A DNA stretch of 64,000 nucleotides from Streptomyces umbrinus (GTDB lineage: Bacteria > Actinomycetota > Actinomycetes > Streptomycetales > Streptomycetaceae): contig NZ_JAUSZI010000002.1 of the NCBI RefSeq assembly GCF_030817415.1, positions 11,817,501 to 11,881,500 on the forward strand, given 5' to 3'. The notes beneath the pieces were generated by a model that was not told the DNA's origin, did not search any database, and saw nothing but the letters and a program-made list of their open reading frames with translations. Shown one piece after another: positions 38,242-56,095 of this stretch. The first letter of the stretch is position 1. Each line of letters opens with the position of its first letter. The position numbers and the translations under genes are program-made.

Positions 38242-38689
38242 CGGATGCCGTACAAGGTGGACCCGCTCCCGTGACCGCGTCAAGACCCTTCAACCTAGTC
38301 CATTTTGTCCTGTTTATTTGTCTGGACCAAGAAGCGCCAGCTCACAGTGGACGCATGGCAGGTTGGCGCGCGGGTACTCGACTGAACCTTGACCGAACCG
38401 TGGTGAGGAGGCGGCGCAGTGCCCCGCCCGTCCACATAGACTCCGGCGCGCGCGGAGGGGCGTCCGCGCGGCGCTCACGGGAGCCTCGCCGCCAACTGTC
38501 CTCCCTGCGGCCCGCGTTGGAGTCTCGCCCATGGCCGGCGTCGGTACCGGACAGGTCGATGGAGGCGGGCGACAGGTGAGCGCCTACGTCACAGCAGGGC
38601 GAGGGGGTCGTACGGCCAAGTGATGCGGAAGGCCCCGCCGCAGATGTGCGCGGCCGGGCCTTCGGCGGCGTTTCGGAGGGTGGGTCGGC
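38242..38689. other. Region without a gene
   Basis: About 450 bases, partly AT-richer near 38290-38330 (likely promoter DNA of the lost secreted-protein gene). No intact gene or repeat was found. Confidence 0.4.
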
Positions 38690-38870
38690 CCATCTCGAAC
38701 GTCGCCGGGTTCGAGCCCAAGCGGCGGTTCTCGTCCAGCGCGCTGATCGCGGCGATGTCCTCCGCGTCCAGCGAGAAGTCGAGACTTCGTTGACCGCCGG
38801 GATGACGGAGGCCCCGGCGATCGGCGTCTTCAGGCGCTCCGGAAAGAAGTTGGAGAGCCGATGGCACGCA
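38690..38870 (-). pseudogene. Aldo/keto reductase remnant
   Basis: One minus-strand frame reads LSNFFPERLKTPIAGASVIP followed by AVNEVS (the GVSNF...VVPAVNQ region of aldo/keto reductases); another reads FSLDAEDIAAISALDENRRL followed by SNPATF (the C-terminal part). About 60 residues between them, and the frame, are lost. Confidence 0.65.
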
Positions 38871-39168
38871 CGCGGCCGTCCTTGCTCACGAGCTCTCGAT
38901 TCTTCAGTCGTCGGGCGGTACTGCCATCGTCGACGATCACGACCGCTGTGCATTCCTGACCGGTGGATTCGCTGTGGATTGTTGGGTGCGAGCCGGAGAT
39001 TGGCCAGAAATTGATCCGATCTTATCGGTCCGGACCATTGACCGCGTCCTTTCGTACCGGGACTCTATTGCACGCTGCTGAACTCAGTGCATGCATGTGA
39101 ACACCAGCTCCTGTCTGGGCCTCTTCGGGCCCCACACCCCCACCTCTCGGGAAAGCGGGTACGCGCAC
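38871..39168 (+). promoter_or_regulatory. Upstream region of the PQQ operon
   Basis: About 300 bases without a gene before pqqA. It is less GC-rich than its surroundings (39000-39100), as expected for a promoter region, but no single -35/-10 pair is persuasive. The pqqA ATG has only a weak ribosome site (GGGAAAG, 15 bases away). Confidence 0.45.
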
Positions 39169-39309
39169 ATGAACGAGACGGCGTACGACACCCAGCACAC
39201 GGAACGGATCATTCAGGAGACATCGGAGGGCACGGTCCGGGGGACACTCGGGTATCTGGTCGTCGAGACCGCCCTGGAGGTCACCGCCTACGCACTCGGC
39301 GACCGGTAA
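39169..39309 (+). CDS. pqqA: PqqA-like precursor peptide, 46 aa
   Basis: PQQ is built from a glutamate and a tyrosine of the ribosomal peptide PqqA, spaced E-x3-Y. The C-terminal part VETALEVTAYALGDR carries exactly this spacing (E37, Y41) and resembles FEVTMYFANR of known PqqA. The peptide is longer at the N-terminus than proteobacterial PqqA (about 24 residues). It lies five bases before a PqqC-like gene, with pqqD and pqqE following, which is the best support. Confidence 0.75.
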   Translation: MNETAYDTQHTERIIQETSEGTVRGTLGYLVVETALEVTAYALGDR

Positions 39310-39314
39310 CGAGC

Positions 39315-39695
39315 GTGCCCGCAACGTCCGTGCGCGACGACGGCGCCGCGGCCCTTTGGCGCACTCCCGAGTTCACCGAGCGGCTGCGCGCCGTCGCCGC
39401 CTCGCTCACCGAGTTGTCGGCTCCCGGCCTGATGCGCACCCGCATTGCCGCCTTCCCACACCACTACCCGTGGATCGCCGCCGACGGCCTCGCCTACTTC
39501 CGTACCCGGATCGGGCAGGGCGGCCGCGACAGCGAGGAGGCGCTCGCGCTGGTGCAGACTTGGGCGCGCACCCGCGAACAGCAGGAACGCGCGGCAGCGG
39601 TACTCGCCTTCAAGTGCGATGTGCTGTGGGCGTTGCTGGATGCGGTGGAGCGTGGAGCACCGGATGATGGCGCGGTCGCGGAGGACGCCACGTGA
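39315..39695 (+). CDS. pqqC: PqqC-like protein lacking the central region, 126 aa
   Basis: After a short start (LWRTPEFTERLRA, like the beginning of PqqC) the sequence jumps to the C-terminal third of PqqC: VAASLTELSAPGLMRTRIAA, HHYPWIAADGLAYFRTRIGQ, then AFKCDVLWALLDAVE. Normal PqqC has about 230-250 residues and performs the last ring closure and oxidation. By comparison with Klebsiella PqqC (from memory) the C-terminal active-site His, Tyr, Arg and Lys are kept, but the N-terminal His and Arg residues are gone. The reading frame is intact, so this is an in-frame deletion. GTG 39315; overlaps pqqD (GTGA). Its function is doubtful. Confidence 0.75.
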   Translation: MPATSVRDDGAAALWRTPEFTERLRAVAASLTELSAPGLMRTRIAAFPHHYPWIAADGLAYFRTRIGQGGRDSEEALALVQTWARTREQQERAAAVLAFKCDVLWALLDAVERGAPDDGAVAEDAT

Positions 39696-39946
39696 CCTGG
39701 CGTCCTGAGCTTTCCCGCGCAGTGATGCTCCGTCACGTCCGCGTTCGCGACGTCGACCTGCTGCTCCTGCCCGAGCGGGTGGTCGTGCTGCGCGGCGGCG
39801 CCGGCAGTGTCCTGCGCCTCTGCGACGGCCGTCGCGAGGTGCGCGAGATCGTCGCCGAGCTCGGGGAACGGATCCCCGGCGCACCGGTCGCCGACGAAGT
39901 CCCGGAATTCCTCACGGCGTTGCGAAAGGAGGGCTGGCTCCGGTGA
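39692..39946 (+). CDS. pqqD: PQQ biosynthesis peptide chaperone PqqD, 84 aa
   Basis: PqqD / RiPP recognition element fold: VRVRDVDLLLLPERVVVLRG (beta strands), AGSVLRLCDGRREVREIVAEL (helix) and VADEVPEFLTALRKEGWLR. PqqD binds the PqqA leader and delivers it to PqqE. GTG start overlaps the pqqC-like stop; the end overlaps pqqE by GTGA, so all three are translationally coupled. Length is normal. Confidence 0.88.
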   Translation: MTWRPELSRAVMLRHVRVRDVDLLLLPERVVVLRGGAGSVLRLCDGRREVREIVAELGERIPGAPVADEVPEFLTALRKEGWLR

Positions 39947-40959
39947 ACGCCGATCCGCCCTGGGCCCTGCTCGCCGAACTCACCCACGGCTGTCCGCTGC
40001 AGTGCGCGTACTGCTCCAACCCCGTCGAACTGATCAGTCGGTCAAAAGAGTTGAACGCCGAACAATGGGAGGACGTGCTGGACCAGGCCGCTGTCCTGGG
40101 CGTCGTCCAGCCCCACCTCTCCGGCGCCGAGCCCCTCCTGCGACGCGACCTCGCCCAGATCGTCGCGGTGGCGGACGACGCGGGCCTCCACACCCAGCTG
40201 GTCACCAGCGGAGTCGGCCTCCACGAACGGCGGCTCGACGAGTTGATCGACGCCGGACTGCACAGCGTCCAGCTCTCCGTCCAGCACGCGGATCCAAAGA
40301 AGTCCGAACACATCGCCGGGGCACGGTCGTTCACCGCGAAGGAGCGCGCCGCGAGCCTGATCCGCACGGCCGGACTCCCCTTCGGGGTCAACGTCGTGCT
40401 GCACCATGCCAATATCGACGCCCTCGACGAGCTGATCAGCCTCGCCCTGGACCGGGGCGCCGAACGCGTCGAGCTGGCCAACACCCAGTTCTACGGTTGG
40501 GCCCTGCGCAACCGCGCCGCATTGCTGCCGACCCGCGCCCAGGTGGAGCGGGCCCGCGAAACGGTGACCCGCCGACGCGAACTCCTCGCCGGATCGGTGG
40601 AGTTGGTGTGGGTGTCCCCGGACTACATCGACGGCACCGCGAAACCGTGCATGGGCGGCTGGGGAGCGCTCTCCCTGACCGTCGCCCCCGACGGCACGGT
40701 TCTGCCGTGCCCCGCCGCCGGCGCGCTGCCCGGACTCGACGCACCCAACGTCACACAGCGCCAACTCGCCTGGATCTGGAGGGAGTCGAAGGCCTTCAGC
40801 ACCTACCGGGGCCAGGACTGGATGCGGGATCCCTGCCGCACCTGTGCCCTGCGCACCACCGACTTCGGCGGCTGCCACTGCCAGGCGTACGCGCTGACCG
40901 GCGAAGCCGACCGCGCCGACCCGGTCTGCCGGCACTCGCCCCCGACCACCACCTCGTAA
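39943..40959 (+). CDS. pqqE: PqqA peptide cyclase PqqE (radical SAM, SPASM domain), 338 aa
   Basis: Radical SAM cluster motif CPLQCAYC at residues 16-23 of an ELTHGCPLQCAYCSNPVEL segment typical of PqqE. The C-terminal SPASM region holds further cysteines (KPCMGGWGALSLTVAPDGTV, PCPAAG, DPCRTCALRTTDFGGCHCQA, DPVC) that bind auxiliary Fe-S clusters. The enzyme forms the C-C bond between Glu and Tyr of PqqA. All cluster cysteines appear present, so the enzyme looks functional. It overlaps pqqD by GTGA. The next gene, a secreted GH105, follows after 109 bases on the same strand. Confidence 0.92.
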   Translation: MNADPPWALLAELTHGCPLQCAYCSNPVELISRSKELNAEQWEDVLDQAAVLGVVQPHLSGAEPLLRRDLAQIVAVADDAGLHTQLVTSGVGLHERRLDELIDAGLHSVQLSVQHADPKKSEHIAGARSFTAKERAASLIRTAGLPFGVNVVLHHANIDALDELISLALDRGAERVELANTQFYGWALRNRAALLPTRAQVERARETVTRRRELLAGSVELVWVSPDYIDGTAKPCMGGWGALSLTVAPDGTVLPCPAAGALPGLDAPNVTQRQLAWIWRESKAFSTYRGQDWMRDPCRTCALRTTDFGGCHCQAYALTGEADRADPVCRHSPPTTTS

Positions 40960-41028
40960 GCGATCTCGTCGATGAAGCCGCCGGGCCGCGTACGGACCTC
41001 GCCTACACCTATCGAGCCTATTGAGCCT

Positions 41029-41049
41029 GTCGACCCGATTGAGGTCGAC
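41029..41049 (+). promoter_or_regulatory. Dyad before the secreted-enzyme operon
   Basis: GTCGACC-CGATTGA-GGTCGAC: perfect 7-bp inverted arms around a 7-base centre, 20 bases before the GH105 start and overlapping the likely promoter. It could be an operator for a LacI- or GntR-type regulator. Confidence 0.45.
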
Positions 41050-41068
41050 CCTAGTGAGAGGGAGGATC

Positions 41069-42289
41069 ATGAGACGTCTGAGCGCCGCGCTGACGGCGGG
41101 CGTGTTCGCCACCGCCGGGCTGCTGACGGTCACCGCGACCGCCCCGCCAACTCCCCTGGAGCACACGGCGGTCGCGCGACCGGCCGCCGCCACCGACTGG
41201 TCCGTCGCCATGGTCGACTCGACGACGGCCCGCTACACGCCGAGCACCATCGGCGGCTGGTCGTACCCCGTCGGCCTGTATCTCTACGGCCAGTACCTCA
41301 CCTATCAGCGCACGCACGACGCGCGCTATCTCTCGTACCTCACGAGCTATGTCGACCGCTTCGTGAAGAGCGACGGATCGATGGACCAGGGCTTCAACAG
41401 CCTCGACAGCATGCAGGCCGGACGGCTGCTGGTGATCCTGCACCGCGAGACCGGCGAGGACCGCTACCGCAAGGCGGCCAAGAAGATCCGCGACCGGCTC
41501 GACACCTTCCCGCGCACGTCCGACGGAGGCTTCTGGCACGCCGACACCAGCAGCCGCGCCCATCAGCTCTGGTCGGACGGCGTCTATATGGTGAACCCGT
41601 TCCTCGTCGAGTACGGCAAGGAGTTCGGGGACTCGGCGTACGCGAATGACGAGGCCGCCAAGCAGTTGTACGTGTACGGCAGGCACCTCCAGGTCTCAGG
41701 CGGCCTGTTGAAGCACGCCTACGACGAGTCGAAGACCGCGAGCTGGTCCGATCCGGGAACCGGACTCGCCCCCGAGCACTGGTGCAGGGCGGTCGGCTGG
41801 TACTCGATGGCGATCGTCAACGTGCTGGACGCCCTGGCCGTGAACCACGTACGCCGACCTCAACTCATGGGCATTCTGCGGGACTTGGCGAAAGGCCTGA
41901 AGAAGTACCAGGACCCGGCGACCGGCCGCTGGTTCCAGGTCATCGACAAGGGCAGCAGGAGCGACAACTGGACCGAGACCTCCTGCTCCAGCATGTTCAC
42001 CTACGCCCTCTCGCGCGGCGCCCAGCAGGGCTACCTCGACGCGCACTACAAGTCCGTCGCCCAGCGCGGTTACGAGGGCGTCCTCGCCAAGATCTCGCTC
42101 GGCTCCGACGGGCGCACCAACCTCACCGATATCTCCATCGGCACCAACGTCGGCGACTACGCCTTCTACATGGCCCGGCCCCGGGAGACCAACGACTTCC
42201 ACGGCCTCGGCGCCTTTCTGATCATGAACGAGCAGCTCAGAACAAAAGCTCGGAACAAACCCACTCAGGACGAGGTGAGTCAGCCATGA
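41069..42289 (+). CDS. Secreted GH105/GH88-family unsaturated uronyl hydrolase, 406 aa
   Basis: Signal peptide at about 1-40 followed by an (alpha/alpha)6-barrel protein. SSRAHQLWSDGVYMVNPFLV carries the catalytic Asp region of GH105 (DGxYM), and GLAPEHWCRAVGWYSMAIVN is the second conserved block. These enzymes remove the unsaturated uronic acid left at oligosaccharide ends by polysaccharide lyases, as in rhamnogalacturonan breakdown. ATG 41069 follows GGGAGG. First gene of a secreted-enzyme operon; its end overlaps the lyase-like gene (ATGA). Most GH105 proteins are cytoplasmic; this one appears exported. Confidence 0.85.
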   Translation: MRRLSAALTAGVFATAGLLTVTATAPPTPLEHTAVARPAAATDWSVAMVDSTTARYTPSTIGGWSYPVGLYLYGQYLTYQRTHDARYLSYLTSYVDRFVKSDGSMDQGFNSLDSMQAGRLLVILHRETGEDRYRKAAKKIRDRLDTFPRTSDGGFWHADTSSRAHQLWSDGVYMVNPFLVEYGKEFGDSAYANDEAAKQLYVYGRHLQVSGGLLKHAYDESKTASWSDPGTGLAPEHWCRAVGWYSMAIVNVLDALAVNHVRRPQLMGILRDLAKGLKKYQDPATGRWFQVIDKGSRSDNWTETSCSSMFTYALSRGAQQGYLDAHYKSVAQRGYEGVLAKISLGSDGRTNLTDISIGTNVGDYAFYMARPRETNDFHGLGAFLIMNEQLRTKARNKPTQDEVSQP

Positions 42290-43077
42290 GCACATCCCGA
42301 AGGACTCTGCTGGGCATGGCGCTCGGCGCCACCACAGGAGCCGCGGTCGGCGGCCTGCCTGCCGCCACCGCACACGCCGCCTCCTGGCAGCAGAAGTGGG
42401 CACCGTCGGCGAGCAGCGACAAGCTCGGTGCCTTCGAGACCATCGAGGACGACCGAGCCGACTCCCACCCCGCCGGCTCCCCGCACATCTTCGCCACCGG
42501 CGACAACTGGCGCTTCAACATGCACACCGTCGACCGCGACACCTCGACCGACCGCCAGCGCCACGAGGTCACCGGCCTGCGCAACGGCGGTGGCAGCAAC
42601 TACCTCAAGTGGACCGAGGGCCAGACCTGGCGGGTCACGTACTCGATGTACATCCCCAGCTCCCTGAAGGCGACCACCACCTTCACCCACATCATGCAGA
42701 TGAAGCAGCCCGGTGCGGGCAGCTCGCCGATCGTCGTGCAGTCGCTCCGTCGGGTGAACGGCGTGCAGACCATCGAGCTCAAGCTCTTCGAGGACGACAT
42801 CCTCGTCGGCCGTACCGACCTGGAGCCGCTGCACAACAAATGGATCGACGTCGACTTCCAGATCAAGGTCGGCAACGGCTCGGCGGGCTCGGTCCGCTGG
42901 ATCCTCAAGAACGGCTCGACCACCGTCATCGACAAGTCGAAGACCGGCGTCGACACCTTCCTGGCCGACCGCGTCCGCCCGAAGTGGGGCATCTACCGCT
43001 CCCTCGGCGACACCTCGGGGTCTCTGCAGGACTGCTACCTCCTGCTCAGCAATCTGCGCGGCTACCAACTCGTATAA
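42286..43077 (+). CDS. Tat-exported polysaccharide-lyase-like beta-jelly-roll protein, 263 aa
   Basis: Twin-arginine signal MSTSRRTLLGMALGATTGAA. The mature protein is a beta-sandwich of the heparin-lyase-I/PL20 type: RHEVTGLRNGGGSNYLKWTE, WRVTYSMYIPSS, THIMQMKQPGAGSSPIVVQS and KWGIYRSLGDTSGSLQDCYL, the last being typical of the final strands. Lyases of this fold cut uronic-acid polysaccharides by beta-elimination and leave the unsaturated ends that GH105 removes, and the two genes overlap by ATGA. The exact PL family is not certain from sequence alone. Confidence 0.7.
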   Translation: MSTSRRTLLGMALGATTGAAVGGLPAATAHAASWQQKWAPSASSDKLGAFETIEDDRADSHPAGSPHIFATGDNWRFNMHTVDRDTSTDRQRHEVTGLRNGGGSNYLKWTEGQTWRVTYSMYIPSSLKATTTFTHIMQMKQPGAGSSPIVVQSLRRVNGVQTIELKLFEDDILVGRTDLEPLHNKWIDVDFQIKVGNGSAGSVRWILKNGSTTVIDKSKTGVDTFLADRVRPKWGIYRSLGDTSGSLQDCYLLLSNLRGYQLV

Positions 43078-43088
43078 GGAGCCGACCC

Positions 43089-46000
43089 ATGCAGCAGCGC
43101 AAGCGATGGGCGGCGACCGTGTTCTTCGCGTTCGCCATCGTGCTCGGCCTGACGCAGCCCTCCGCGTTGGCCACCCCCCAACTCCCGGGGCCCGCGGACA
43201 CCACCCAACTTCCGGCCCGTGCAGCCGAGTTCGACGTACGTGACTACGGAGCAAAGGGTGACGGCTCCACCAACGACACCCCTGCCATCAACAAGGCTGT
43301 CACGGCGGCGAATTCGGCGGGCGGCGGCACGGTCCGCTTCCCGGCCGGCAAGTACAAGTCCAAGAACACCATCCGCATGAAGAGCGAGGTCACGCTCCAG
43401 GTCGACAAGGGCGCCACCATCCAGGGCTCCAGCGCCGACACCTACGACGCGCCCGAGGACAACCCGTACGACGACTACCAGGACTACGGGCACAGTCACT
43501 TCCACAACGCGATGATCTACGGCGACAGGCTGACGAACATCGGCTTCGTAGGCGAGGGCGTCATCGACGGCCTCGGCAACCTCATCACCGGCAACCCCAA
43601 GTCCGGGGAGGCCGACAAGATCATCTCGCTGACCCGTTGCGACGGACTCCGCCTCGGCGACGGAATCACCCTCCGCAGGGGCGGCCACTTCGCGGCCCTC
43701 ATCAACGGCTGTACGAACGTCACCTCGGACCGACTGAACATCGACACCGCGAGCGACCGCGACGGCTGGAACATCATCAGCACGACGAACGTCACCGTGA
43801 CGAACGCCAACATCAAGGCCAACGACGACGCGCTCGCCTTCAAGAGCGACTACGCACTCGGCGCCAAGCTCCCCAACGGCCATGTGCGGGTGAGCGATTC
43901 GTACCTCTCGGCCGTCTGCTGCAACGCCCTCATGTTCGGCTCCGAGACCTGCGGCGACTTCTCCGACTACCAGTTCGCGAAGATCCGCATCGAGGGCTCC
44001 AACAAGTCGGGGCTCGGCATGGTCTCGATGGACGGCGCCAAGATCTCCGACGTCCACTACCGCGACATCACCATGACCAATGTGCACTCGCCGATCATGC
44101 AGAAGATCGGCACCCGCAAGCGATGCGGCAACGACCCGGGCATCGGATCCATCAGCGACATCACGTACGACAACATCACGGCCTCCGGGTCGAGCCCGTC
44201 GTTCAGCCCGACCCTGTGGGGCGAAAGCGGCCACCGCATCAACGGCGTCAGCTTCAACAACGTCAACATCACCGTGCCCGGCGGCAACGGCACCATGTCC
44301 ATCGCCGTGCCGGACAACACCGCCACCGACTACAACCCGAACAGCATCGGCACCCGGCCTGCGTACGGCTGGTACCTCCACAACGCGGACAACGTCACCT
44401 TCACGGACAGCTCGGTGAAGTTCGCGGCGAACGACGGGCGCCCGGCGGTCATCGCGAACTCGGCGAGCGGCGTCAGGTTCAACCGCTTCACGGCTCAGCG
44501 CGGCAGTGACTCGCCCCACGACGTCGGCTTCCAGTCCGTCACCGGCTACTGCCTGACGGACAGTCACAACCCATCGGGCGGCGCGCTGCGAGTCTCCAGC
44601 AGCGGCGGATCCACGGAGAATTGCAGCTCGGCCGCGACGCCGCTCGACCTGGAGAACCCCCGTCAGGATTTCCTACGAGGCTCGGTCGGTGGACTCTTCC
44701 TGCACTGGGGTGAACGCACCGCCCCCGCCCACACCAGCTGCACCGGCTGGGAGAACGACGTCACCAGCGGCGGCTGGACTCCCGAATACTGGGTGAACGA
44801 GGCCCAGAAGCTGCACACCCAGTACCTGGTGCTGGCCACCTTCCACAGCCGGCTCGGCTATGCCCGCCCCTGGCCGTCGAAGATCCCCGGCAGTTGCTCC
44901 ACCAAGCGGGACTTCGTCGGCGAGCTGATCACCGCTGCCAAGGCCAAGGGGCTCAAGGTGATCCTCTACATGACCGACGACCCCCAGTGGCACAACGAGG
45001 GCGGTCATGAGTGGCTCGACTCGGCCGCGTACTCCTCCTACAAGGGCAAGACGGTCGACCTCACCACCCGCGACGGCTTCGGGCAGTTCTCGTTCGACAA
45101 CTTCTTCGAGGTCATGGACCGCTACCCCGACCTCGGCGGCTTCTGGATCGACAACGACAACGCGTACTGGGAGAGCCACGACCTCTACGCGCAGATCCAG
45201 CAGAAGCGGCCCACATACACGCTCAGCAACAACAACGAAGACACGCCGATCATGGACATGATCAGCAATGAGCAGAAGACGGGGATGTCGCCGTCGTACG
45301 ACTACCCGCAGGCGATCTACACCGCTCAACCCCGCCTCACCGAGGCCGACTTCAAGCTGCCGTCCAGCGGGGCGTGGTGGTACGACGGCTCGAACCCGGC
45401 CGTCGACAAGATGCTCACGCTCGGCCGGCTCATCACCAACGCGGGCTCGTCCGTGAAGGCGCTGATGGCCGAGACAGCCCAGGTCAACGGCAAGTTCCCG
45501 AGCAATCAGTCCGCCTTCAACAACTTCGCCGACTCCTACCTCGACCCCATCTGGGAGTCGCTGCAGGGCACCGAGGGCGGTGGCTATATGTACGGCGGCC
45601 TCAAGCCCGGGTTCTGGAACGACGGCGCGCACGGAGTGACGACGGTCAGCAAGAGCGATCCGAACCGCCAGTACGTGCATGTGCTGACGCCGCCCTCCAC
45701 CAGCACCCTGCGCATCCGCGACAACGGCTACCGCATCGCCTCAGTCACCAACCTCCGAACGGGCGCGGCGATTTCGTGGTCGCAGTCCGGCGGAGTTCTC
45801 ACACTGAACGGGCTCGGCAACTGGGATCCGTACGACACCGTCTTCAAGGTCACGACCGCCGGACGGCAGGGGATCCTCTCGGGGGTCGGTGTGAGCGCGA
45901 GCGCCTCGGCGAGCGGTCACGGGGCGTCGGCCGCCGGAGACGGCGACTACCTGACCTACTGGGACAGCAACAAGACACTGCCGGTCAATCTCACCTTCGA

Positions 46001-46337
46001 TCTCGGCAGTTCGAAGAAGGTGCAGTACATCGGGCTCAACCAGCGCGAGGATTCGGTCGCCTACGCGCGCTCCGACACCGAGCAGTCCGCCCGTATCAAG
46101 GGCTACAAGGTGTTCCTCAGCAACGACGGGACCAATTGGGGGAGCGCCGCCAAGACGGGCGAGCTTCCGAGCCGCCGGGGAATCCAGGGAATCGACCTCA
46201 CGGCCGCCAATGCCCGTTACGTACGGCTCGAAATCGACACCACCTGGGCCGCGTCCAGCGACTCCGCCCGCTACAAGCGGCTGCGGATCGACGAGGCCTG
46301 GATCGGGACCGCCTATGCGACGGGGGCATCGTCATGA
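43089..46337 (+). CDS. Secreted GH28-like / GH29-like / CBM32 fusion enzyme, 1082 aa
   Basis: Three modules follow a Sec signal (1-30). Residues about 45-480: right-handed beta-helix of the polygalacturonase type (FDVRDYGAKGDGSTNDTPAI, IKANDDALAFKSDYA). About 520-930: a GH29 alpha-L-fucosidase-like barrel (GGLFLHWGERTAP; GGFWIDNDNAYW with likely nucleophile D688). About 932-1080: F5/8-type C (discoidin, CBM32) domain (NLTFDLGSSKKVQYIGLNQR). One chain could open a pectic backbone and remove fucose side groups. AAGGAG precedes ATG 43089, and the stop overlaps the GH27 gene. A GH28-GH29 fusion is, as far as I know, unusual; the frame is continuous through both junctions. Confidence 0.83.
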   Translation: MQQRKRWAATVFFAFAIVLGLTQPSALATPQLPGPADTTQLPARAAEFDVRDYGAKGDGSTNDTPAINKAVTAANSAGGGTVRFPAGKYKSKNTIRMKSEVTLQVDKGATIQGSSADTYDAPEDNPYDDYQDYGHSHFHNAMIYGDRLTNIGFVGEGVIDGLGNLITGNPKSGEADKIISLTRCDGLRLGDGITLRRGGHFAALINGCTNVTSDRLNIDTASDRDGWNIISTTNVTVTNANIKANDDALAFKSDYALGAKLPNGHVRVSDSYLSAVCCNALMFGSETCGDFSDYQFAKIRIEGSNKSGLGMVSMDGAKISDVHYRDITMTNVHSPIMQKIGTRKRCGNDPGIGSISDITYDNITASGSSPSFSPTLWGESGHRINGVSFNNVNITVPGGNGTMSIAVPDNTATDYNPNSIGTRPAYGWYLHNADNVTFTDSSVKFAANDGRPAVIANSASGVRFNRFTAQRGSDSPHDVGFQSVTGYCLTDSHNPSGGALRVSSSGGSTENCSSAATPLDLENPRQDFLRGSVGGLFLHWGERTAPAHTSCTGWENDVTSGGWTPEYWVNEAQKLHTQYLVLATFHSRLGYARPWPSKIPGSCSTKRDFVGELITAAKAKGLKVILYMTDDPQWHNEGGHEWLDSAAYSSYKGKTVDLTTRDGFGQFSFDNFFEVMDRYPDLGGFWIDNDNAYWESHDLYAQIQQKRPTYTLSNNNEDTPIMDMISNEQKTGMSPSYDYPQAIYTAQPRLTEADFKLPSSGAWWYDGSNPAVDKMLTLGRLITNAGSSVKALMAETAQVNGKFPSNQSAFNNFADSYLDPIWESLQGTEGGGYMYGGLKPGFWNDGAHGVTTVSKSDPNRQYVHVLTPPSTSTLRIRDNGYRIASVTNLRTGAAISWSQSGGVLTLNGLGNWDPYDTVFKVTTAGRQGILSGVGVSASASASGHGASAAGDGDYLTYWDSNKTLPVNLTFDLGSSKKVQYIGLNQREDSVAYARSDTEQSARIKGYKVFLSNDGTNWGSAAKTGELPSRRGIQGIDLTAANARYVRLEIDTTWAASSDSARYKRLRIDEAWIGTAYATGASS

Positions 46338-47683
46338 CACGTATCCGCATCAGATCACTGGTCCTCGCCCTGGTCGGGCTGCTGATCGCCTCCGCGATTC
46401 CGCTGCTTGGCGGTGGGCACCCGGCCGCCGCCTCCGACAACGGTCAGTCCATCCGCCCCGCCATGGGCTGGAGCAGCTGGAGCTTCGTGCGCCGTCTGCC
46501 GACCGAGGAGAAGATCAAGGCACAGGCGGACGCCCTGGTATCGAGCGGGCTCAAGAACCAGGGATTCGTGTATGTGAATCTTGACGACTTCTGGCAGAAG
46601 TGCGACGCGAACGGGTTCGTCGTCGACTCCTACGGCCGCTGGACCGTCGACTCGGCCAAGTTCCCGTCCGGAATCAAGGCGCTCGCCGACTACATCCACT
46701 CCAAGGGGCTGAAGTTCGGCTTCTATGTGACGCCGGGCATCGCCAAGAACGCCGTCACCAAGAATACGCCGATCGAGGGGACGTCGTACCGCGCGAAGGA
46801 CATCGCGGACACCTCGAAGACCGAGAAGAACTACAACTGCAAGAACATGTACTACATCGACTACGGGAAGCCGGGCGCGCAGGAGTTCGTCAACTCGTGG
46901 GCGAAGCAGTTCGCTTCCTGGGGCGTCGACTACCTGAAGATCGACGGGGTGGGCAGCCAGGACATCCCGGACGTCCAGGCCTGGGACAAGGCGCTGCGGG
47001 CGACCGGACGGCCGATCAACTATGCGCTCTCCAACAACCTTCCGATCGACAACGCCTCCACTTGGCGGCGGCTGGCCAACAGTTGGCGCACGCAGGGTGA
47101 TGTGGAGTGCTACTGCGGTCCGGGCTCGAACGGCAGCGGCTATCCCCTCACCGATTGGGCGCACGTCACCGCCCGCTTCACCTCGGCCGCCAACTGGCAG
47201 CAGTACGCGGGCCCCGGCGGCTGGAACGACCTCGACTCGCTGGAGATCGGCAACGGCGACCAGGTCGGCCTCACCGCCGACCAGCGCCGCTCGCACTTCA
47301 CGCTGTGGGCGATGGCGGGCTCACCGCTGCTGCTCGGCACCGACCTGACGAAGCTCGACTCCGTCGACAAGGCGATGCTGACGAACGACCGGCTCATCGG
47401 CGTCGACCAGGACGGCGTCGCGGCCAAACGCATTGTCAACAGCGGTGTCAAGCAGGTCTGGAGCAAGAAGGAAAACAGCGGCGACTATGTCGTGGCGCTC
47501 TTCAACACCGGCACCTCCGGCAACTCCACGGTCAGTGTGAACTGGTCGCAGGTCGGGTTCACCGGTTCCGGCGACGTCACGGACCTGTGGTCGGGCTCCG
47601 ACAAGGGCACGATCGCTGACTCGTACAGCGCGACCCTCCGGCCCGGCGAGACCCGCCTGATCCGGGTGACACCCCAGGGCTGA
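46334..47683 (+). CDS. Secreted GH27 alpha-galactosidase-like enzyme, 449 aa
   Basis: Sec signal at about 1-33, then a GH27 barrel: MGWSSWSFVRRL, FVYVNLDDFWQKCDANG, SKGLKFGFYVTPG, DYLKIDG with nucleophile D204, and GGWNDLDSLEIGNG with acid/base D301. The C-terminal beta domain is present (VALFNTGTSGNSTVSVNW). GH27 includes alpha-galactosidases and beta-L-arabinopyranosidases, which act on galactan and arabinogalactan side chains. ATG overlaps the stop of the fusion enzyme (ATGA). Last gene of the coupled operon. Confidence 0.88.
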   Translation: MTRIRIRSLVLALVGLLIASAIPLLGGGHPAAASDNGQSIRPAMGWSSWSFVRRLPTEEKIKAQADALVSSGLKNQGFVYVNLDDFWQKCDANGFVVDSYGRWTVDSAKFPSGIKALADYIHSKGLKFGFYVTPGIAKNAVTKNTPIEGTSYRAKDIADTSKTEKNYNCKNMYYIDYGKPGAQEFVNSWAKQFASWGVDYLKIDGVGSQDIPDVQAWDKALRATGRPINYALSNNLPIDNASTWRRLANSWRTQGDVECYCGPGSNGSGYPLTDWAHVTARFTSAANWQQYAGPGGWNDLDSLEIGNGDQVGLTADQRRSHFTLWAMAGSPLLLGTDLTKLDSVDKAMLTNDRLIGVDQDGVAAKRIVNSGVKQVWSKKENSGDYVVALFNTGTSGNSTVSVNWSQVGFTGSGDVTDLWSGSDKGTIADSYSATLRPGETRLIRVTPQG

Positions 47684-47699
47684 ACGGCAGGAGCGGCAA

Positions 47700-47721
47700 G
47701 GTCTTCCGGCTTCGGGAGACC
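47700..47721 (+). terminator. Hairpin after the GH27 gene
   Basis: GGTCTTCCG-GCTT-CGGGAGACC forms a 9-bp stem with one mismatch and a 4-base loop, 17 bases after the GH27 stop. It probably ends the operon, and the next gene has its own operator. Confidence 0.55.
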
Positions 47722-47735
47722 TGTGCCCTCTGACC

Positions 47736-47754
47736 GTTAGGAAGCTTTCCTAAC
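47736..47754 (+). promoter_or_regulatory. Palindromic operator-like site, copy 2
   Basis: GTTAGGAAGCTTTCCTAAC: perfect 8-bp inverted half-sites around GCT, 38 bases before the GH18 start. The same motif (one mismatch) is found at 38223-38241 before another secreted-protein gene. It looks like a regulator binding site; the protein is not known to me. Confidence 0.75.
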
Positions 47755-47792
47755 GCCCACACTCCACCCCCCACTCCAGGAGGACGATCCAC

Positions 47793-48803
47793 ATGCATAC
47801 CGCCGTACCCCCACGCAGTCCCCGCGTGGCCCTCGCCGCCCTGCTGGGACTCTTGCTGTCCCTGCTGTTCGCCGTGCCGCCGGCGTCGCAAGCGGCCACG
47901 GCGAGACCTCTTGCCTCCCCGGGCATGGCCGTCGCGCCGTACGAGTACCTCGGCTGGGGCAGCCCGCAGAACCCGACCTCGGTGATGTCCGCGACCGGCG
48001 TCAAGTGGTTCACGCTCGCCTTCATCCTCTCCGACGGCTCCTGCAACCCGAAATGGGACGGCTCGCGCCCGCTGACCGGCGGCAACGACCAGTCGACAAT
48101 CAACGCCATCCGGGCGGCCGGCGGTGACGTCATCGTCTCCGTCGGCGGCTGGAGCGGGGCGAAACTCGGCGAGAAGTGCTCCAGCGCCTCGGCGCTGGCC
48201 GGCGCGTACCAGAAGATCATCAACGCGTACGGTCTCAAGGTCATCGACATCGACATCGAGAACACCGAGTGGTCCAACGCGACGGTCCGGCAGCGGGTGA
48301 TTGACGCGCTGAAGATCGTGAAGGCGAACAACTCCGGTCTGAAGACCATCATCACCTTCGGCACGACGACCAGCGGCCCGGACTCCACCGGCGTCGACAT
48401 GATCAAGCGCGGAGCCAATTCCGGTCTGGCGAACGACATCTGGTGCATCATGCCGTTCGACTTCGGGGGCGGCTCCAGCAACATGGGCACGCTGACCACC
48501 CAGGCCATGGAGGGCCTCAAGGCGCGAGTCAAGTCCGCGTACGGCTACACCGACTCGGCGGCGTACGCACACATCGGGCTGTCGTCGATGAACGGCAAGA
48601 CCGACGTCTCGGGCGAACTCGTCCGTGTCGCGGACTTCAAGACCATGCTCGCCTACGCCCAGCAGCACCGCATCGCCCGCCTCACGTACTGGTCCGTCAA
48701 CCGCGACCGGGCCTGCGGCTCCGGCTCCGCCGGTGACGCGTGCAGCGGCGTCTCGCAGCAGCCGTACGACTACCTCAAGGTCTTCGCCCAGTACACGGGC
48801 TGA
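47793..48803 (+). CDS. Secreted GH18-family (chitinase-like) protein, 336 aa
   Basis: Sec signal at about 1-34. The GH18 barrel is shown by KWFTLAFILSDGSCNPKWDG, VIVSVGGWSGAKLGE (the SxGG strand) and KVIDIDIENTEW, the DxxDxDxE active-site strand with the catalytic glutamate E156; the first Asp of the motif is Lys here. The C-terminal part (THIGLSSMNG-like block, LTYWSVNRDRACGSG) is typical of chitinase D-type proteins. It may hydrolyse chitin or related GlcNAc polymers. GGAGG precedes ATG 47793. It is controlled separately from the GH105-GH27 operon, judging by its own operator. Confidence 0.87.
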   Translation: MHTAVPPRSPRVALAALLGLLLSLLFAVPPASQAATARPLASPGMAVAPYEYLGWGSPQNPTSVMSATGVKWFTLAFILSDGSCNPKWDGSRPLTGGNDQSTINAIRAAGGDVIVSVGGWSGAKLGEKCSSASALAGAYQKIINAYGLKVIDIDIENTEWSNATVRQRVIDALKIVKANNSGLKTIITFGTTTSGPDSTGVDMIKRGANSGLANDIWCIMPFDFGGGSSNMGTLTTQAMEGLKARVKSAYGYTDSAAYAHIGLSSMNGKTDVSGELVRVADFKTMLAYAQQHRIARLTYWSVNRDRACGSGSAGDACSGVSQQPYDYLKVFAQYTG

Positions 48804-48817
48804 AAGGAGGGACAACC

Positions 48818-50854
48818 ATGAAGATCTTCCGTCGGATCGCCGCGAGCACGGCCGTGCTGCTCGGTGCCGGACTCGTCCAGGCCGTACCACAGGCCGCCGC
48901 GGCGGCCCCCACCCGCTACGAGGCGGAGAACGCGGCATACGTCTCGGGCTCCACCGTGGACGACAACTACGCCGGTTACTCCGGTACCGGATTCGTGAAC
49001 ACCCCCAACTCGGCGGGCAGTTACGTCGAGTTCACCGTCAACGCGGCCGGCGCGGGCAACGCGAAGCTTGCCCTGCGGTACGCCAACGGCACGACGGCGG
49101 ACCGCCCGGCCGACATCGCGGTCAACGGCACCGTGGTCAAGTCCGGCTACTCGTTCCCGTCCACCAGCACCTGGTCCGCCTGGACCACGACGACGGTCTC
49201 CGTCCCGGTCAACGCGGGCAGCAACAAGATCCGGCTCACCGCGACCGACTCGGGCGGCCTGGCCAACACCGACTATCTCGACTTCGAACTCTCCTCCACC
49301 GACGCGCAGGTCCCGAGCCGCCCGGGGCAGCCCAGTTGCTCGGCGATCACCGAGGACCGGCTGACCCTGTCCTGGGGTGCCTCGACCGACAACGTGGGCG
49401 TGGCCGCGTACGACATCTACGAGCACGGCAACAAGATCAGCGAGGCCGCGGGCAGTGCGACCTCCAAGGCGCTGACCGGGCTGAGCCCGAACACCACCTA
49501 CAACCTGACGGTCATCGCCAGGGACGCGGCGGGCAACGCCTCGGCCGCCAGCCCGGTCGTGGACTGCACGACCTCGAAGAGCACCGACACCACCGCGCCG
49601 AGCAGGCCCGGCACGCTGTCGGTCGCCAATGTGACCGCCAACAGTGCCGAGTTGAGCTGGGGCGCCGCGACGGACGACAGGGCGGTCGTCGGCTATGACG
49701 TACGCAGCGGCACCACCGTCTACAAGACCGTCACGGGTACCTCGACCTCACTGACCGGGCTCGCTTGCGACAGCCCGTACGGGTTGAACGTGGTGGCGCG
49801 CGATGCGGCGGGCAATGTGTCCGAGCAGAGCAACACCGTCAGCTTCACCACGAAGGCGTGTGTGACGGACGGCGGTGTCCCGTCGTCGATCGCCACCGTC
49901 TCCAGCGGCTGGACCATCCCCTGGGGCACGTACTGGATGCCCGACGGCCAGACTGCGTTGGTCACCGAGCGGGACGACTTCCGGGTCTGGAAGGTGACCA
50001 AGGACGGCACCAAGACGCAGGTCGGTACCGTGCCGAACGCCGTCACGACCAACGGCGAGGGCGGCCTGCTCGGCGTGGCGGTCGACCCCAAGTGGGAGAC
50101 CAACCACTACGTGTACTTCATGCACACGGCGTCCGAGGGCAACCGGGTCGTCCGCATGACGTACAACGGCAGCTCGCTGACCGGCTACACGGTTCTCCTC
50201 CAGGGCATCAAGAAGAACCGTTACCACAACGGCGGCCGGCTCGTCTTCGGCCCCGACGGTTATCTGTACGTCTCGACCGGCGAGGCCCAGACGCCCGACC
50301 TCGCGCAGGACAAGAACTCGCTCAACGGCAAGATCCTGCGCATGACCACGGACGGAAAGGCCGCCCCCGGCAATCCGTTCAACAACTACGTCTACAGCTA
50401 CGGCCACCGCAATCCGCAGGGCCTCGCCTTCGACCGCAACGGGCGCCTGTGGGAAGCGGAGTTCGGCAACAGTTCCAAGGACGAGCTGAACCTGATCAAG
50501 CCGGGCGCCAACTACGGCTGGCCGACCTGCGAAGGCACCTGTGATGTGTCCGGCATGACCAACCCGAAGAAGACGTGGAACGTCTCCGAGGCCTCTCCGA
50601 GCGGTATCGCCATCGTCCGCAACGTCATCTACATGGCGTCCCTGCGGGGGGAGCGGCTGTGGCGGATCCCGATCACCGGTGACACGGAGAACGTCGGTAC
50701 CGCGACGGCGTACTACGTGGGCACGTACGGACGCCTTCGTACGGTCACCAAGGTGCCGGGCGCCGACCAGCTCTGGCTCTCGACGACGAACTGCGACAAC
50801 AACGGAGGCGAGGCGGACGGCTCGGACAAGATCTTCCGGGTGAGCATCAGCTAG
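48818..50854 (+). CDS. Secreted PQQ-dependent sugar dehydrogenase with CBM6 and two FN3 domains, 678 aa
   Basis: Sec signal (1-27), then a CBM6 carbohydrate-binding module (RYEAENAAYVSGSTVDDNYA), two fibronectin type III domains (PSRPGQPSC..., PSRPGTLSV...), and a six-bladed beta-propeller of the soluble PQQ glucose/sorbosone dehydrogenase type (about 345-678): HNGGRLVFGPDGYLYVSTGE and YGHRNPQGLAFDRNGRLWEA carry the PQQ-site His and Arg. The propeller resembles CAZy AA12. Such enzymes oxidise sugars using PQQ and pass electrons to acceptors. AAAGGAGGG precedes ATG 48818, 14 bases after the GH18 gene, so both are probably one transcript. It links the locus to the pqq operon 8 kb upstream. Confidence 0.88.
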   Translation: MKIFRRIAASTAVLLGAGLVQAVPQAAAAAPTRYEAENAAYVSGSTVDDNYAGYSGTGFVNTPNSAGSYVEFTVNAAGAGNAKLALRYANGTTADRPADIAVNGTVVKSGYSFPSTSTWSAWTTTTVSVPVNAGSNKIRLTATDSGGLANTDYLDFELSSTDAQVPSRPGQPSCSAITEDRLTLSWGASTDNVGVAAYDIYEHGNKISEAAGSATSKALTGLSPNTTYNLTVIARDAAGNASAASPVVDCTTSKSTDTTAPSRPGTLSVANVTANSAELSWGAATDDRAVVGYDVRSGTTVYKTVTGTSTSLTGLACDSPYGLNVVARDAAGNVSEQSNTVSFTTKACVTDGGVPSSIATVSSGWTIPWGTYWMPDGQTALVTERDDFRVWKVTKDGTKTQVGTVPNAVTTNGEGGLLGVAVDPKWETNHYVYFMHTASEGNRVVRMTYNGSSLTGYTVLLQGIKKNRYHNGGRLVFGPDGYLYVSTGEAQTPDLAQDKNSLNGKILRMTTDGKAAPGNPFNNYVYSYGHRNPQGLAFDRNGRLWEAEFGNSSKDELNLIKPGANYGWPTCEGTCDVSGMTNPKKTWNVSEASPSGIAIVRNVIYMASLRGERLWRIPITGDTENVGTATAYYVGTYGRLRTVTKVPGADQLWLSTTNCDNNGGEADGSDKIFRVSIS

Positions 50855-51275: not shown

Positions 51276-52188
51276 CCGCGGCACGGTGTCGTTTCATCGA
51301 TGCGGAGAAGGCATCGGAGGGTAATCCTGCAGGTCACAGCATTGCGTTTCTGCGCCGTGTGCTGGGAGTGCCCCGTTCCGCCTACTACGCGCACAGGGCG
51401 TCACGGCCGGCCCGGACGGTGCGGGAGCGGGCCGGGGAGGTGCTGGTGGGCGAGATCCGGGTGCTTCACGCCGGATCTCGCGGTGCCTACGGGCCCCGCG
51501 GATCCACGCCGCCCTGCGGCGGGCCGGGCGGGTGGTGAATTCCAAGAAGGTCGAGCGGCTGATGCGCAGGCACCGGATCGTCGGGATCACCCGCCGCCGG
51601 CGGCGGCGGGGCCTGACCCGGCAGGCGAAGCGGGCGGTGTTCGCGCTCGACCTGATCGGCCGGAACTTCACCGCGCCCCGGCCCGGGATGCGGCTCGTCG
51701 GCGACATGACTGAACTCAGCACGCTGGAAGGGAAGTTGTATCTGGCGACCTGTATCGATCTCGCGACGCGGGAGGTGGTCGGCTGGGCGGTGGCCGACCA
51801 TCACCGCGCCGAGCTGCCGGTCAATGCCCTGCGGATGGCGGCCGGGCGTGGCGGCCTGGAACACGGTTGCATCATGCATACGGATCGCGGCAGCGAGTAC
51901 GCGAGTGACGAATTCCGCACAGAAATACGCAAGTTGCGTATGAGGCAGTCGATGGGGCGCGTCGGCTCTTGTTACGATAATGCCGCCGCGGAAAGCTGGT
52001 TCGCCCTCCTGAAAGCGGAGATCGGGACGACCGTGTGGGAGACCCGCGAGGCCGCCCGGGCCGACGTTTTCCGCTACGTCGAGGTCGAGTACAACCGCAG
52101 CCGGCTCCGCCGGCACCTCGACTACGGGTACGGCACCCCGCTCGAAACGAGATCCTTGCTCAGGCAGAGCCTCGTCCCGGCAGCGTAA
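51276..52188 (+). pseudogene. IS3 OrfB transposase with one frameshift
   Basis: RFIDAEKASEGNPAGHSIAF and VLGVPRSAYYAHRAS are read in one frame up to GSRGAYG (about 51490). One missing base then shifts to the frame of PRIHAALRRAGRVVNSKKVE and the DDE core: LVGDMTELSTLEGKLYLATC (Asp), MHTDRGSEYAS (Asp), NAAAESWFALLKAE (Glu). With the base restored the protein would be complete, so inactivation is recent or a sequence error. Confidence 0.85.
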
Positions 52189-52218: not shown

Positions 52219-53255
52219 TCAGGGCCGGTATCGCCAAGCCGACGTACATGTTCAAGGACGGCTCGGACATCTGGGCGTAGGACTTCATCGAGCCCGGTTA
52301 TGTCAGTATGCCCGGCCCGGGCGGCAAGCCGCGCGTCCTGCGGATGATGATCCGCTCGGCGCAGATGGACCGCGACGCGGGCAAGCAGGTCTTCGAGATG
52401 CGCGGGCCCGGTGTCGGCGCCGTACAGATCAACAAGGGTTCGTTCAACGACCAGGCCGACCAGATCAACTCCACGGGCAACCTGGAGACCATTCCGCCGT
52501 ACACCTACAACGGCAGGTCCTACCCGGCGGGCCGGATCATCACCGGCCGGCACGGCACCCGGCTGCCCGCGCACACGGCCTTCCTCAGGGCCCAGCAGGC
52601 GCAGGACCCGCTGGTGCTCGACACGGGATGGCTCGGCGTCGGCCATGTGGATGAGTTCGTGCAGTTCCTGCCCGCGGACACCCCGCGCGGCTGGAAGATC
52701 GGCATCGCCGACCCGGAGGGTGCGCTGGCCCTGCTGCGCAAGGCGCAGCGGGACGGGCACGGCCACGCCAAGGTGTTCTCCATTCCGCGCTCCTACGGCC
52801 AGGGCCGTATTCCCACGATCGACCAGGCCTTGTCCGACCGGCAGTTGCTGAAGGACAACGCCTTCGCGGCCCGGAAGATCAAGGAGAACCTGGCGCTGCT
52901 GAAGCGGGAGACCGGCGTCATGGACGGCGAGGTCGTGAAGATCCCGGCGATGTTCGAGGGTGGCTTCGGTGGCTCCCCCGGAACGCAGGACCGTCCGGTC
53001 GTCGCCTACTATCCCGGTGCCGTCAATGGCGTTGTGCTGAGCCCCACCACGTATGCCGCCCCCAGGCAGTGGGGCCCGGTCGTGGGCGGCAAGGACATCC
53101 TCGCCGAGGCGGTGACCCGGGCGTACGCCAAGGTCGGCATGCGGGTGCGCTACCTGGACGACTGGCGTACCCACCACGTCTCCGCTGGCGAGGTGCACTG
53201 CGGCACCAACACGATCCGCGCGGCCGGCACGGCCTGGTGGAGCTCCCCCAAGTAG
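52219..53255 (+). pseudogene. Protein-arginine deiminase-family protein, 5'-truncated with in-frame stop
   Basis: The catalytic C-terminal domain of the PAD family is recognisable: KPTYMFKDGSDIWA-stop-DFIEPGYVSMPGP, then LDTGWLGVGHVDEFVQFLPA (catalytic His/Asp region) and SAGEVHCGTNTIRA with the nucleophilic Cys. The N-terminus is lost at the IS3 end, and a TAG (52278-52280) stands where relatives have a Gln codon. Translation from ATG 52308 could still make the catalytic half, but without export signal or N-terminal domains. Intact relatives convert arginine to citrulline and are secreted in Streptomyces. Confidence 0.8.
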
Positions 53256-54393: not shown

Positions 54394-54625
54394 CTGCCCG
54401 ACATCGCGAACGTCGTTCGATCCACCGGACAACTTCCGCCCTCACCCGCTCTTGGATTGACCAACCGTGCCGGCGAGAGACATGCCGTTGCGCGGATCCG
54501 ACCCCGCTTCCGCGTCGTGCGGTAGTCGACCCTGTCCCGCCAACGCTGGGACTGAGCCCCCCGGTTGACCCTGCTTCGCCCCTTTTCGCCCGATGGTGGC
54601 ATTCGCAGAACGATAGGAGATGGAC
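54394..54625 (+). other. Leader region of the GH43 gene
   Basis: No gene. A short dyad CGAAC-GTC-GTTCG is seen near 54407, possibly an operator. No riboswitch-like structure was recognised. Confidence 0.35.
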
Positions 54626-56059
54626 ATGTCCGCGCTCCGCGCCCGGCTGTCGGCGATATTGCTCGCCGTGTGCCTGCTCTTCACAGGCCAAGCCCTGACC
54701 ACACCGCAGCGGGCTGCCGCCGCCGATCCGGGCTATCTGATGGCGCACTTCATCGGGGAAGGGGCGACCGGTCAGCAGATCTACTTCTCGCACAGCGCGG
54801 ACGGCCTGCACTGGAGTGACCTCAACGGCGGCGGGATGGCCCTGCGTTCCACGGTGGGCACGCGTGGAGTGCGCGACCCCGCACTGGTCCGCTCTCCCGA
54901 CGGCAGCAAGTACTGGATCATCGCGACCGATCTGTGCATCGACTGCGGGCAGACGTGGAGTCAGTCCATCAACGACGGCAGCCGCAACCTCGTGGTGTGG
55001 GAGTCGACGGACCTGGTCAACTGGTCGCAGCCGCGGCTGCTCAACGTCGCCGGAGCGATTCCCGACGGGCGCAACGCGTGGGCGCCGGAGGCGATCTGGA
55101 ACCCGGCCACCAACGACTACATCCTGTACTGGGCGACGAACAAGCCCCTCAACGGCGCAACGAAGCACCGCATTTACTACGCCCGCACCAGCGACTTCCG
55201 CTCCATCACCACCCCGCAGGTCTACATCGAGCGCCCCGGCACCCAGGAAATCATCGACACCCAGATCGTCGAGATGCCGAGTGGCGTCGGCGACTACCGC
55301 TACGTACGGGCCTCCGGTGACGGCCAGATCACCCTCGAAGGCAGCAACTCGATCCTCGGCACTTGGACCAACCTCGGCAACCTCTCCGGCATCGGCCTGA
55401 CCGGCTCCCAGGTCGAGGGTCCGATGTGGATGAAGTTCAGAGACCGCAACGAGTGGACCCTCTACCTCGACCAGTACGCCTCGGGACGCGGTTACATGCC
55501 GGTCACGACGACCAACCCGTCCGCCTCCGGCACCTACAAGCTCCCGGCGTCGGGCAGCTACAACCTGGGCGGCACCAAGAAGCGCCACGGCTCGATCCTG
55601 AACCTGACGGCCGCCGAGGAGAGCCGCGTACAGGCCCGCTGGCCCAACACCACGGTCAACCGGCTCCAGTCGTACAACTTCCAGGACCGGTACGTCCGGC
55701 ACGCCAACATGGACGTGCGCATCGACCCCAACGTCAGCCCCGCCGCCGACTCCCAGTTCCGGCTGAGAACCGGTCTGGCGGGCTCCGGTACCGTCTCCTT
55801 CGAGTCGGTGAACTTTCCCGGCTACTTCCTGCGGCACGCCGGATACGACTTCCAGCTCGCCTACAACGACGGCACCACCCAGTTCGCCGCGGACGCCACC
55901 TTCCGCAAGGTCGCCGGGCTCGCCGACGCAAGCTGGTCGTCGTTCCAGTCGTACAACCACCCCGACCGGTACATGCGCCACTACGGGTACCAGCTCCGTC
56001 TCGACCCGATCACCACGGCGACAGGGCGCGGCGACGCCACCTTCCGCGTGACGAACTGA
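54626..56059 (+). CDS. Secreted GH43-family enzyme with arabinose-binding CBM42 (AbfB), 477 aa
   Basis: Sec signal at about 1-33. The five-bladed GH43 propeller covers 35-320: LMAHFIGEGATGQQIYFSHS, GVRDPALVRSPDG (RDP with catalytic Asp), NAWAPEAIWNPATNDYILYW (APE with Glu). The C-terminal AbfB/CBM42 domain (about 335-477) has the repeating pattern LQSYNFQDRYVRHANMDVRI / FESVNFPGYFLRHAGYDFQL / FQSYNHPDRYMRHYGYQLRL, which binds arabinofuranose side chains. It is thus likely an arabinofuranosidase or arabinanase. ATG 54626 fits AGGAG; an ATG two codons earlier is less well spaced. Convergent with the LacI regulator gene. Confidence 0.9.
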   Translation: MSALRARLSAILLAVCLLFTGQALTTPQRAAAADPGYLMAHFIGEGATGQQIYFSHSADGLHWSDLNGGGMALRSTVGTRGVRDPALVRSPDGSKYWIIATDLCIDCGQTWSQSINDGSRNLVVWESTDLVNWSQPRLLNVAGAIPDGRNAWAPEAIWNPATNDYILYWATNKPLNGATKHRIYYARTSDFRSITTPQVYIERPGTQEIIDTQIVEMPSGVGDYRYVRASGDGQITLEGSNSILGTWTNLGNLSGIGLTGSQVEGPMWMKFRDRNEWTLYLDQYASGRGYMPVTTTNPSASGTYKLPASGSYNLGGTKKRHGSILNLTAAEESRVQARWPNTTVNRLQSYNFQDRYVRHANMDVRIDPNVSPAADSQFRLRTGLAGSGTVSFESVNFPGYFLRHAGYDFQLAYNDGTTQFAADATFRKVAGLADASWSSFQSYNHPDRYMRHYGYQLRLDPITTATGRGDATFRVTN

Positions 56060-56095
56060 CCCCACGCCGGCGATGCGGTCCGTGGCCCCGTGCGG

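Follow-up and report, generated by a model that had tools for sequence, protein, structure and literature searches.

Sequence support for a conserved Streptomyces operon joining pqq genes, secreted polysaccharide-degrading enzymes and a PQQ-type sugar dehydrogenase

We analysed a window of 64,000 nucleotides from Streptomyces umbrinus (positions 11817501-11881500 in a genome of 12.4 Mb on three contigs, with a contig end ∼0.4 Mb away), in which genes for biosynthesis of the redox cofactor pyrroloquinoline quinone (PQQ) precede, on the same strand, genes for secreted carbohydrate-active enzymes (CAZymes) and a dehydrogenase of the PQQ-dependent type. Comparison with related genomes supports a conserved Streptomyces operon that unites the pqq genes, the CAZyme genes and the propeller dehydrogenase, and the linkage between pqq and CAZyme genes is beyond chance. 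The simplest reading of the sequences is that this oxidative operon once made its own cofactor and has repeatedly lost that ability. Judged by gene integrity, the local PQQ gene set of the window is damaged, with pqqC and pqqE broken and pqqB absent, and among relatives the dehydrogenase outlives the cofactor genes under equal constraint. All genes named in the original prediction, which was made from the window alone, are present on the + strand as listed here, with starts of open reading frames (ORFs) chosen by hand and translations checked; L followed by a number denotes a locus.

39027-39036, upstream region conserved among relatives: palindrome GGTCCGGACC, then ATTGACC
39169-39309, +: pqqA-like precursor peptide, core ETALEVTAY
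39315-39695, +: pqqC fragment, in-frame loss of ∼120 residues relative to L160
39692-39946, +: pqqD, above the equivalog cutoff (TIGR03859, 63.8 bits, cutoff 46)
39943-40959, +: pqqE, above the equivalog cutoff (TIGR02109, 466 bits, cutoff 381), 3′ end disrupted
41069-42289, +: secreted GH105, YteR-like (PF07470, 300 bits; 1nc5, E 1.6e-78)
42286-43077, +: secreted polysaccharide lyase-like protein (PF14099)
43086-46337, +: secreted GH28, GH29-like and CBM32 domains in a single polypeptide
46334-47683, +: secreted GH27 of alpha-galactosidase or beta-L-arabinopyranosidase type
47793-48803, +: secreted GH18-like protein (weak match, 22 bits, cutoff 29.6)
48818-50854, +: secreted CBM35-FN3-FN3-aldose sugar dehydrogenase (GSDH, PQQ-dependent type)

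With the GH28-GH29-CBM32 protein as query, 76 named loci were obtained from 241 confirmed stretches, of which the best 80 were used; some match only the GH29-CBM32 half of the query, several are cut by contig ends, and genes were counted on the same strand within the fetched flanks. GH29-CBM32 is present in 76 of these loci, GH105 in 62, GH28 in 61, GH27 in 56, GSDH in 54 (dehydrogenase genes on the opposite strand in L112, L115, L119 and L124 were left out), the lyase in 52, GH18 in 38, pqqE in 29 (in L054 as a remnant), pqqC, pqqD and pqqE together in 27 and pqqB in 9. A search for co-occurrence in other genomes had been proposed as a test of the original prediction, and pqq, dehydrogenase and GH genes do co-occur: among 392 genus genomes (the window's own is in every count), 88 carry pqqE and 25 the full-length fusion; 16 of the latter also carry pqqE (Fisher p 4.5e-6), and 14 have it at most 10 kb from the fusion. 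A chance or hitch-hiking neighbourhood of unrelated pqq and CAZyme genes, for which the 47 loci without local pqqE could be cited, is disfavoured and in our view extremely unlikely; chance adjacency was rejected on these 14 of 25 fusions, the four-base overlaps described next and the pqqA remnants that persist where pqq was lost, and GSDH also lies beside pqq outside CAZyme loci.

Where GH105 follows at most 1.5 kb after pqqE, 38 of 52 rows of the junction comparison show a four-base overlap (ATGA or GTGA) between the pqqE stop and the GH105 start; 8 loci stand there twice (16 rows), so that the count is 31 of 44 distinct loci, which argues for one operon. Species with this overlap include S. 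coacervatus, S. olivochromogenes and S. alanosinicus. Within the window, four-base overlaps occur at pqqC/pqqD, pqqD/pqqE, GH105/lyase and fusion/GH27, and the gaps are 8 bp (lyase-fusion), 109 bp (GH27-GH18) and 14 bp (GH18-dehydrogenase). The proposal of one pqq-CAZyme-dehydrogenase system thus stands as far as the conserved operon with its 31 overlaps is concerned, but not for a local PQQ supply in this strain.

A second sample was centred on pqqE and covered up to 20 kb round 102 genus pqqE genes (all 103 minus the window's). For the 78 whose PqqE shares 62% identity or more with either copy of this genome, GSDH is nearby in 61, GH105 in 23 and either in 64; for the 24 divergent PqqE, neither is nearby in any. 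The divergent proteins belong to a second pqqE type in the genus (L044-L047 and L229-L248, 24 of 102 loci), which has no such dehydrogenase nearby. Reduced sets of pqqBCDE, GH105, lyase and GSDH are found in L175, L180 and L188, and the lyase is missing in L193 and L194; what recurs is the dehydrogenase together with GH105, in most cases accompanied by the lyase. CAZyme sets that include the dehydrogenase but differ in gene order and completeness occur also in Actinomadura, Planotetraspora, Lentzea and Actinacidiphila, and Kribbella has CAZymes of the set without the dehydrogenase. The 29 PqqE of CAZyme loci that lack pqqB group together in a single supported clade (SH-aLRT 96). Loci with and without pqq are interleaved in a tree built from the fusion and dehydrogenase proteins, with 12 changes over 66 loci (L079, where a contig ends, was counted as lacking pqq).

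The original prediction also held that PQQ is made locally, which fits relatives but fails in this strain, and PQQ synthesis from the local genes was rejected on gene integrity. The window pqqA retains the EVTAY core (ExxxY type) and scores 13.1 bits against the NCBIfam PqqA cutoff of 20. PqqC covers only model positions 133-223 of 239, with 103 bits against the cutoff of 240 for a complete PqqC, which three relatives scanned exceed with 273-280 bits; at the break relative to L160, ...ERLRAVA jumps to AASLTEL..., and a short repeat GTCGCC lies at both borders. The S-adenosylmethionine motif of PqqE reads GAEP, compared with GGEP in the 41 other readable rows (43 rows in total, some loci twice, L054 unreadable). 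The 3′ end of pqqE is frameshifted and interrupted, with the stop 109 bases before GH105, and the four-base overlap with GH105 has thereby been lost. The tip branch of this PqqE is 0.27, whereas the remaining 28 PqqE of the clade have 0.015-0.15. No match to pqqB was found in the window cluster, and L054, the nearest relative, has lost most of pqqE too.

Traces of pqq loss are also present in other loci. A profile of pqqA plus upstream region, trained on 20 of these loci, matches near the CAZyme start in 26 of the 47 pqqE-less loci. In 16 of the 26, the match reaches well into pqqA, indicating that pqq genes were deleted there; the other 10 cover the upstream region only and are weak evidence of loss, because of that training set and because the profile also matches ahead of L004, the ordinary pqq operon in this genome. 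The palindrome in this region presumably resembles GntR-type sites. A divergent aldo-keto reductase gene also borders the region, of which the window keeps a remnant.

38688-38940, −: aldo-keto reductase remnant, two pieces with 20 and 32 residues matched, of 294

Full-length copies are found in L090, L104, L160 and others. These DkgA-like reductases (L090 4346-5230 on the − strand, also L104, L160 and L057; 355.6 bits against a cutoff of 425) stand divergently beside the operon with or without pqq, and could act on keto-sugar acids.

The dehydrogenase domain is 47% identical to PQQ-bound 3DAS, its closest structure, forms a six-bladed propeller and falls within GSDH. On this sequence evidence the enzyme belongs to the bacterial aldose sugar dehydrogenases (Asd), a PQQ-binding family, as the original prediction had it in part; the suggested likeness to fungal AA12 was rejected, since AA12 chains are merely 14-19% identical and bacterial Asd is closest. 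The genome holds nine GSDH-family stretches in all. A signal peptide was recognised by eye and no anchor motif was noticed by eye (an anchor predictor was not run), so of the anchoring claimed for the enzyme only the signal peptide and the carbohydrate-binding module are seen. This module had been labelled CBM6, which we replaced by CBM35: PF16990 (CBM35) scores 48.4 bits against a cutoff of 28, PF03422 (CBM6) also passes but lower (41 against 28.9), and the best matches in the Protein Data Bank (PDB) are 2vzp and 2w47, which we take to be CBM35 structures that bind uronic acid. In L095, L098, L161 and L178, matches to the CBM35 part lie beside several operon enzymes, as if the targeting module had spread.

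In the GSDH of loci lacking pqqE, both HNGGR, which holds the catalytic His, and GHRN are conserved (29 of 29); the role of His144 and arginines at the PQQ site of sGDH is described in an excerpt of PMC6881789, and these residues were mapped here by motif, not by superposition. The ratio of nonsynonymous to synonymous differences (pN/pS) between the window and L160 is 0.06 for GSDH, 0.31 for pqqE and 0.26 for GH105. Moreover, the median for GSDH is 0.188 where the genome has no pqqE (18 of 23 loci) and 0.185 where pqq is operonic (20 loci). Equal constraint with and without pqqE could also be expected if the propeller no longer used PQQ, being sugar-binding or lactonase-like, with a purely historical tie to pqq; HHIP is among the related propellers, and HHIP-type propellers are, we assume, non-enzymes. 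We consider this improbable, since HNGGR and GHRN are kept in all 29 GSDH without local pqqE and the closest structure is PQQ-bound.

Because the local PQQ genes have decayed and the dehydrogenase was kept, its PQQ probably comes from elsewhere. A second pqq operon is located at 10.49 Mb of the same genome (G000:C2:10.49 Mb), 1.4 Mb from the window cluster, with intact pqqABCDE followed by a second dehydrogenase that is 77% identical to the window's in the domain.

C2:10.49 Mb operon, first genes: pqqA-like peptide; pqqB, 349.7 bits against 245; pqqC, full-length at 244 aa
C2:10.49 Mb operon, further genes: pqqD, 48.5 bits, above the Pfam cutoff; pqqE, 492.8 bits against 381

The lone pqqB match of the genome lies here, and this intact operon is the most likely source of PQQ for the dehydrogenase of this strain, as far as the genes tell. 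Elsewhere, 30 of the 54 GSDH-bearing loci lack local pqqE; seven of their genomes have pqqE at another place, and in the genomes of the other 23 no pqqE was found at E 1e-50 (drafts may miss some). Species without any pqqE presumably use the PQQ of neighbours.

The frequent lack of pqqB could mean that operonic pqqACDE yields another product derived from a ribosomally synthesised and post-translationally modified peptide, and not PQQ. We regard this as very improbable: PqqE, and PqqC in three relatives, score above equivalog cutoffs, the PqqA core EVT[AG]Y is kept, and a PqqB homologue is encoded elsewhere in 10 of 10 tested genomes whose sole pqqE is operonic. These homologues are 43-45% identical to the PqqB of this genome (59% in one), and one that was scanned reaches 345 bits against the TIGR02108 cutoff of 245. 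A split pathway, with pqqB apart from the operon, is thus plausible from the gene content; the evidence for a strict partnership of orphan pqqB with operonic pqqACDE is suggestive only, because 7 of 31 pqqE-less genomes have a PqqB homologue as well.

The gene set as a whole is probably a conserved operon whose products break down a uronate-rich polysaccharide outside the cell and use the released sugars oxidatively; for the polymer, rhamnogalacturonan I or a comparable acidic polymer of walls is our best guess. In relatives the order would be the GGTCCGGACC region, pqqA-(B)-C-D-E, GH105, lyase, GH28-GH29-CBM32, GH27, (GH18) and the CBM35-FN3-FN3-dehydrogenase, with pqq and CAZyme genes presumably co-transcribed. 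Outside the cell, the lyase and glycosidases would free oligo- and monosaccharides, and the dehydrogenase, held by its CBM35 at uronate-bearing material, may with PQQ and Ca2+ convert aldoses to lactones and pass electrons to some acceptor. Fucose, galactose or uronic acid, the sugars named in the original prediction, are candidates for the one oxidised. PQQ made from the same operon would match cofactor supply to the enzyme, and species without pqqE may scavenge it from neighbours. The lyase has more than one candidate family: PF14099 scores 31.1 bits against a cutoff of 29.9 (a longer ORF gives 29.4, just under), and the sequence has a single PDB match at E 0.45, so that a predicted model was used, for which Foldseek ranks PL7 alginate lyases first and a second look ranks a PL20 glucuronan lyase first.

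Alternatively, the dehydrogenase might mainly supply electrons, be it to lytic polysaccharide monooxygenases (LPMOs) or for the reduction of iron or quinones, with the oxidised sugar only as fuel. The CBM35 and the signal peptide seen by eye count in favour. In fungi, LPMOs are driven by a PQQ pyranose dehydrogenase that bears a CBM, an effect that relied on its cytochrome domain (PMC5960967). The window protein has no cytochrome domain and no LPMO or cytochrome family is among the Pfam matches of the operon, so we think this role rather unlikely.

The boldest reading, to which we give slightly less than even odds, is that one transcription unit with translational coupling would join the cofactor genes to those of the consuming enzymes, and that after repeated pqq deletion the dehydrogenase would be kept and run on the PQQ of neighbours, a shared good on decaying plant matter. 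Several results weigh against the main reading, the conserved oxidative operon with its own PQQ genes. Local pqqE is missing in 47 of 76 loci, 13 of 44 loci, the window included, show no four-base overlap, and in the PqqE tree the CAZyme-locus label needs 7 changes, 5 of them forced by well-supported branches. Coupling of PQQ supply is not strict, since for 23 of the 30 GSDH-bearing loci without local pqqE none was detected in the genome either; no pqqB was detected in 20 of the 29 pqqE loci (L079 being cut by a contig end), and the GH29, GH18 and lyase assignments are weak. Furthermore, pN/pS is only slightly raised in the window pqqE (0.31-0.44, against 0.25-0.33 for L160 pqqE) and is raised alike in GH105 (0.26-0.42 against 0.18-0.25); because of the latter, pN/pS alone is no proof of pqq decay and was dropped in that role.

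Other features of the window lie on either side of the operon.

26500-35023, +: Wadjet type II anti-plasmid system, with JetA2, JetB2, JetC2 and JetD2 models all strong
51532-52188: integrase-core gene
52308-53255, +: protein-arginine deiminase domain (PF03068, 315 bits), first 80 profile positions missing
54620-56944: arabinofuranosidase of AbfB/GH43-like type; a LacI-type sugar-binding protein is encoded divergently
57060-59086, +: serine resolvase and IS605 OrfB/TnpB-like protein

The deiminase gene follows shortly after the integrase-core gene and was possibly cut by insertion; the resolvase and TnpB-like pair we take to be an IS607-like arrangement. The GH43-AbfB and LacI-type proteins were rejected as members of the system: at an E threshold of 1e-5, AbfB has no match in the 76 loci and LacI a single one, at 26%.

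If the proposed reading is true, biosynthesis of a diffusible redox cofactor is tied to degradation of one polysaccharide class in a major soil genus, which would give PQQ a likely role in these Gram-positive bacteria. Intact, decaying and lost pqq genes beside the same conserved dehydrogenase would then be a natural experiment on PQQ sharing among soil bacteria, and secreted CBM35-bearing dehydrogenases are potential tools for oxidising pectin-type oligosaccharides.

Among known systems, Streptomyces pqqABCDE with a neighbouring aldose dehydrogenase, as at C2:10.49 Mb, has the same pqq order, and GSDH accompanies it in 61 of 78 main-type loci; the CAZyme operon differs in usually lacking pqqB and in having CAZyme genes between pqqE and a GSDH that bears CBM35-FN3-FN3. 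The S. coelicolor aldose sugar dehydrogenase 3DAS and its Asd family share the six-bladed propeller, 47% identity and the PQQ-site motifs, but the window protein carries CBM35 and two FN3 domains and sits in a CAZyme operon. The GH105 is a close relative of YteR of Bacillus subtilis (E 1.6e-78), whose type acts in rhamnogalacturonan degradation; unlike YteR, it has a signal peptide (by eye) and is joined to a PQQ-type dehydrogenase. To our knowledge, fungi do not make PQQ. The fungal AA12 enzyme CcPDH is likewise a secreted, CBM-bearing PQQ sugar dehydrogenase of polysaccharide breakdown (excerpts of PMC5960967 and PMC4133262), but its AA12 domain is 14-19% identical and the window protein has no AA8 cytochrome. 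In Gram-negative bacteria, PqqU-based scavenging lets PQQ enzymes be kept without PQQ synthesis (PMC12124388, in part); a secreted Gram-positive enzyme, by contrast, would need no importer. The main text of PMC12124388 has no match for Streptomyces, Actinom- or Gram-positive, and a literature search over titles and abstract openings of CC-licensed papers found no such operon described, which is weak evidence of novelty. The parts are all of known kinds, and what is new is their arrangement, their coupling and the repeated loss.

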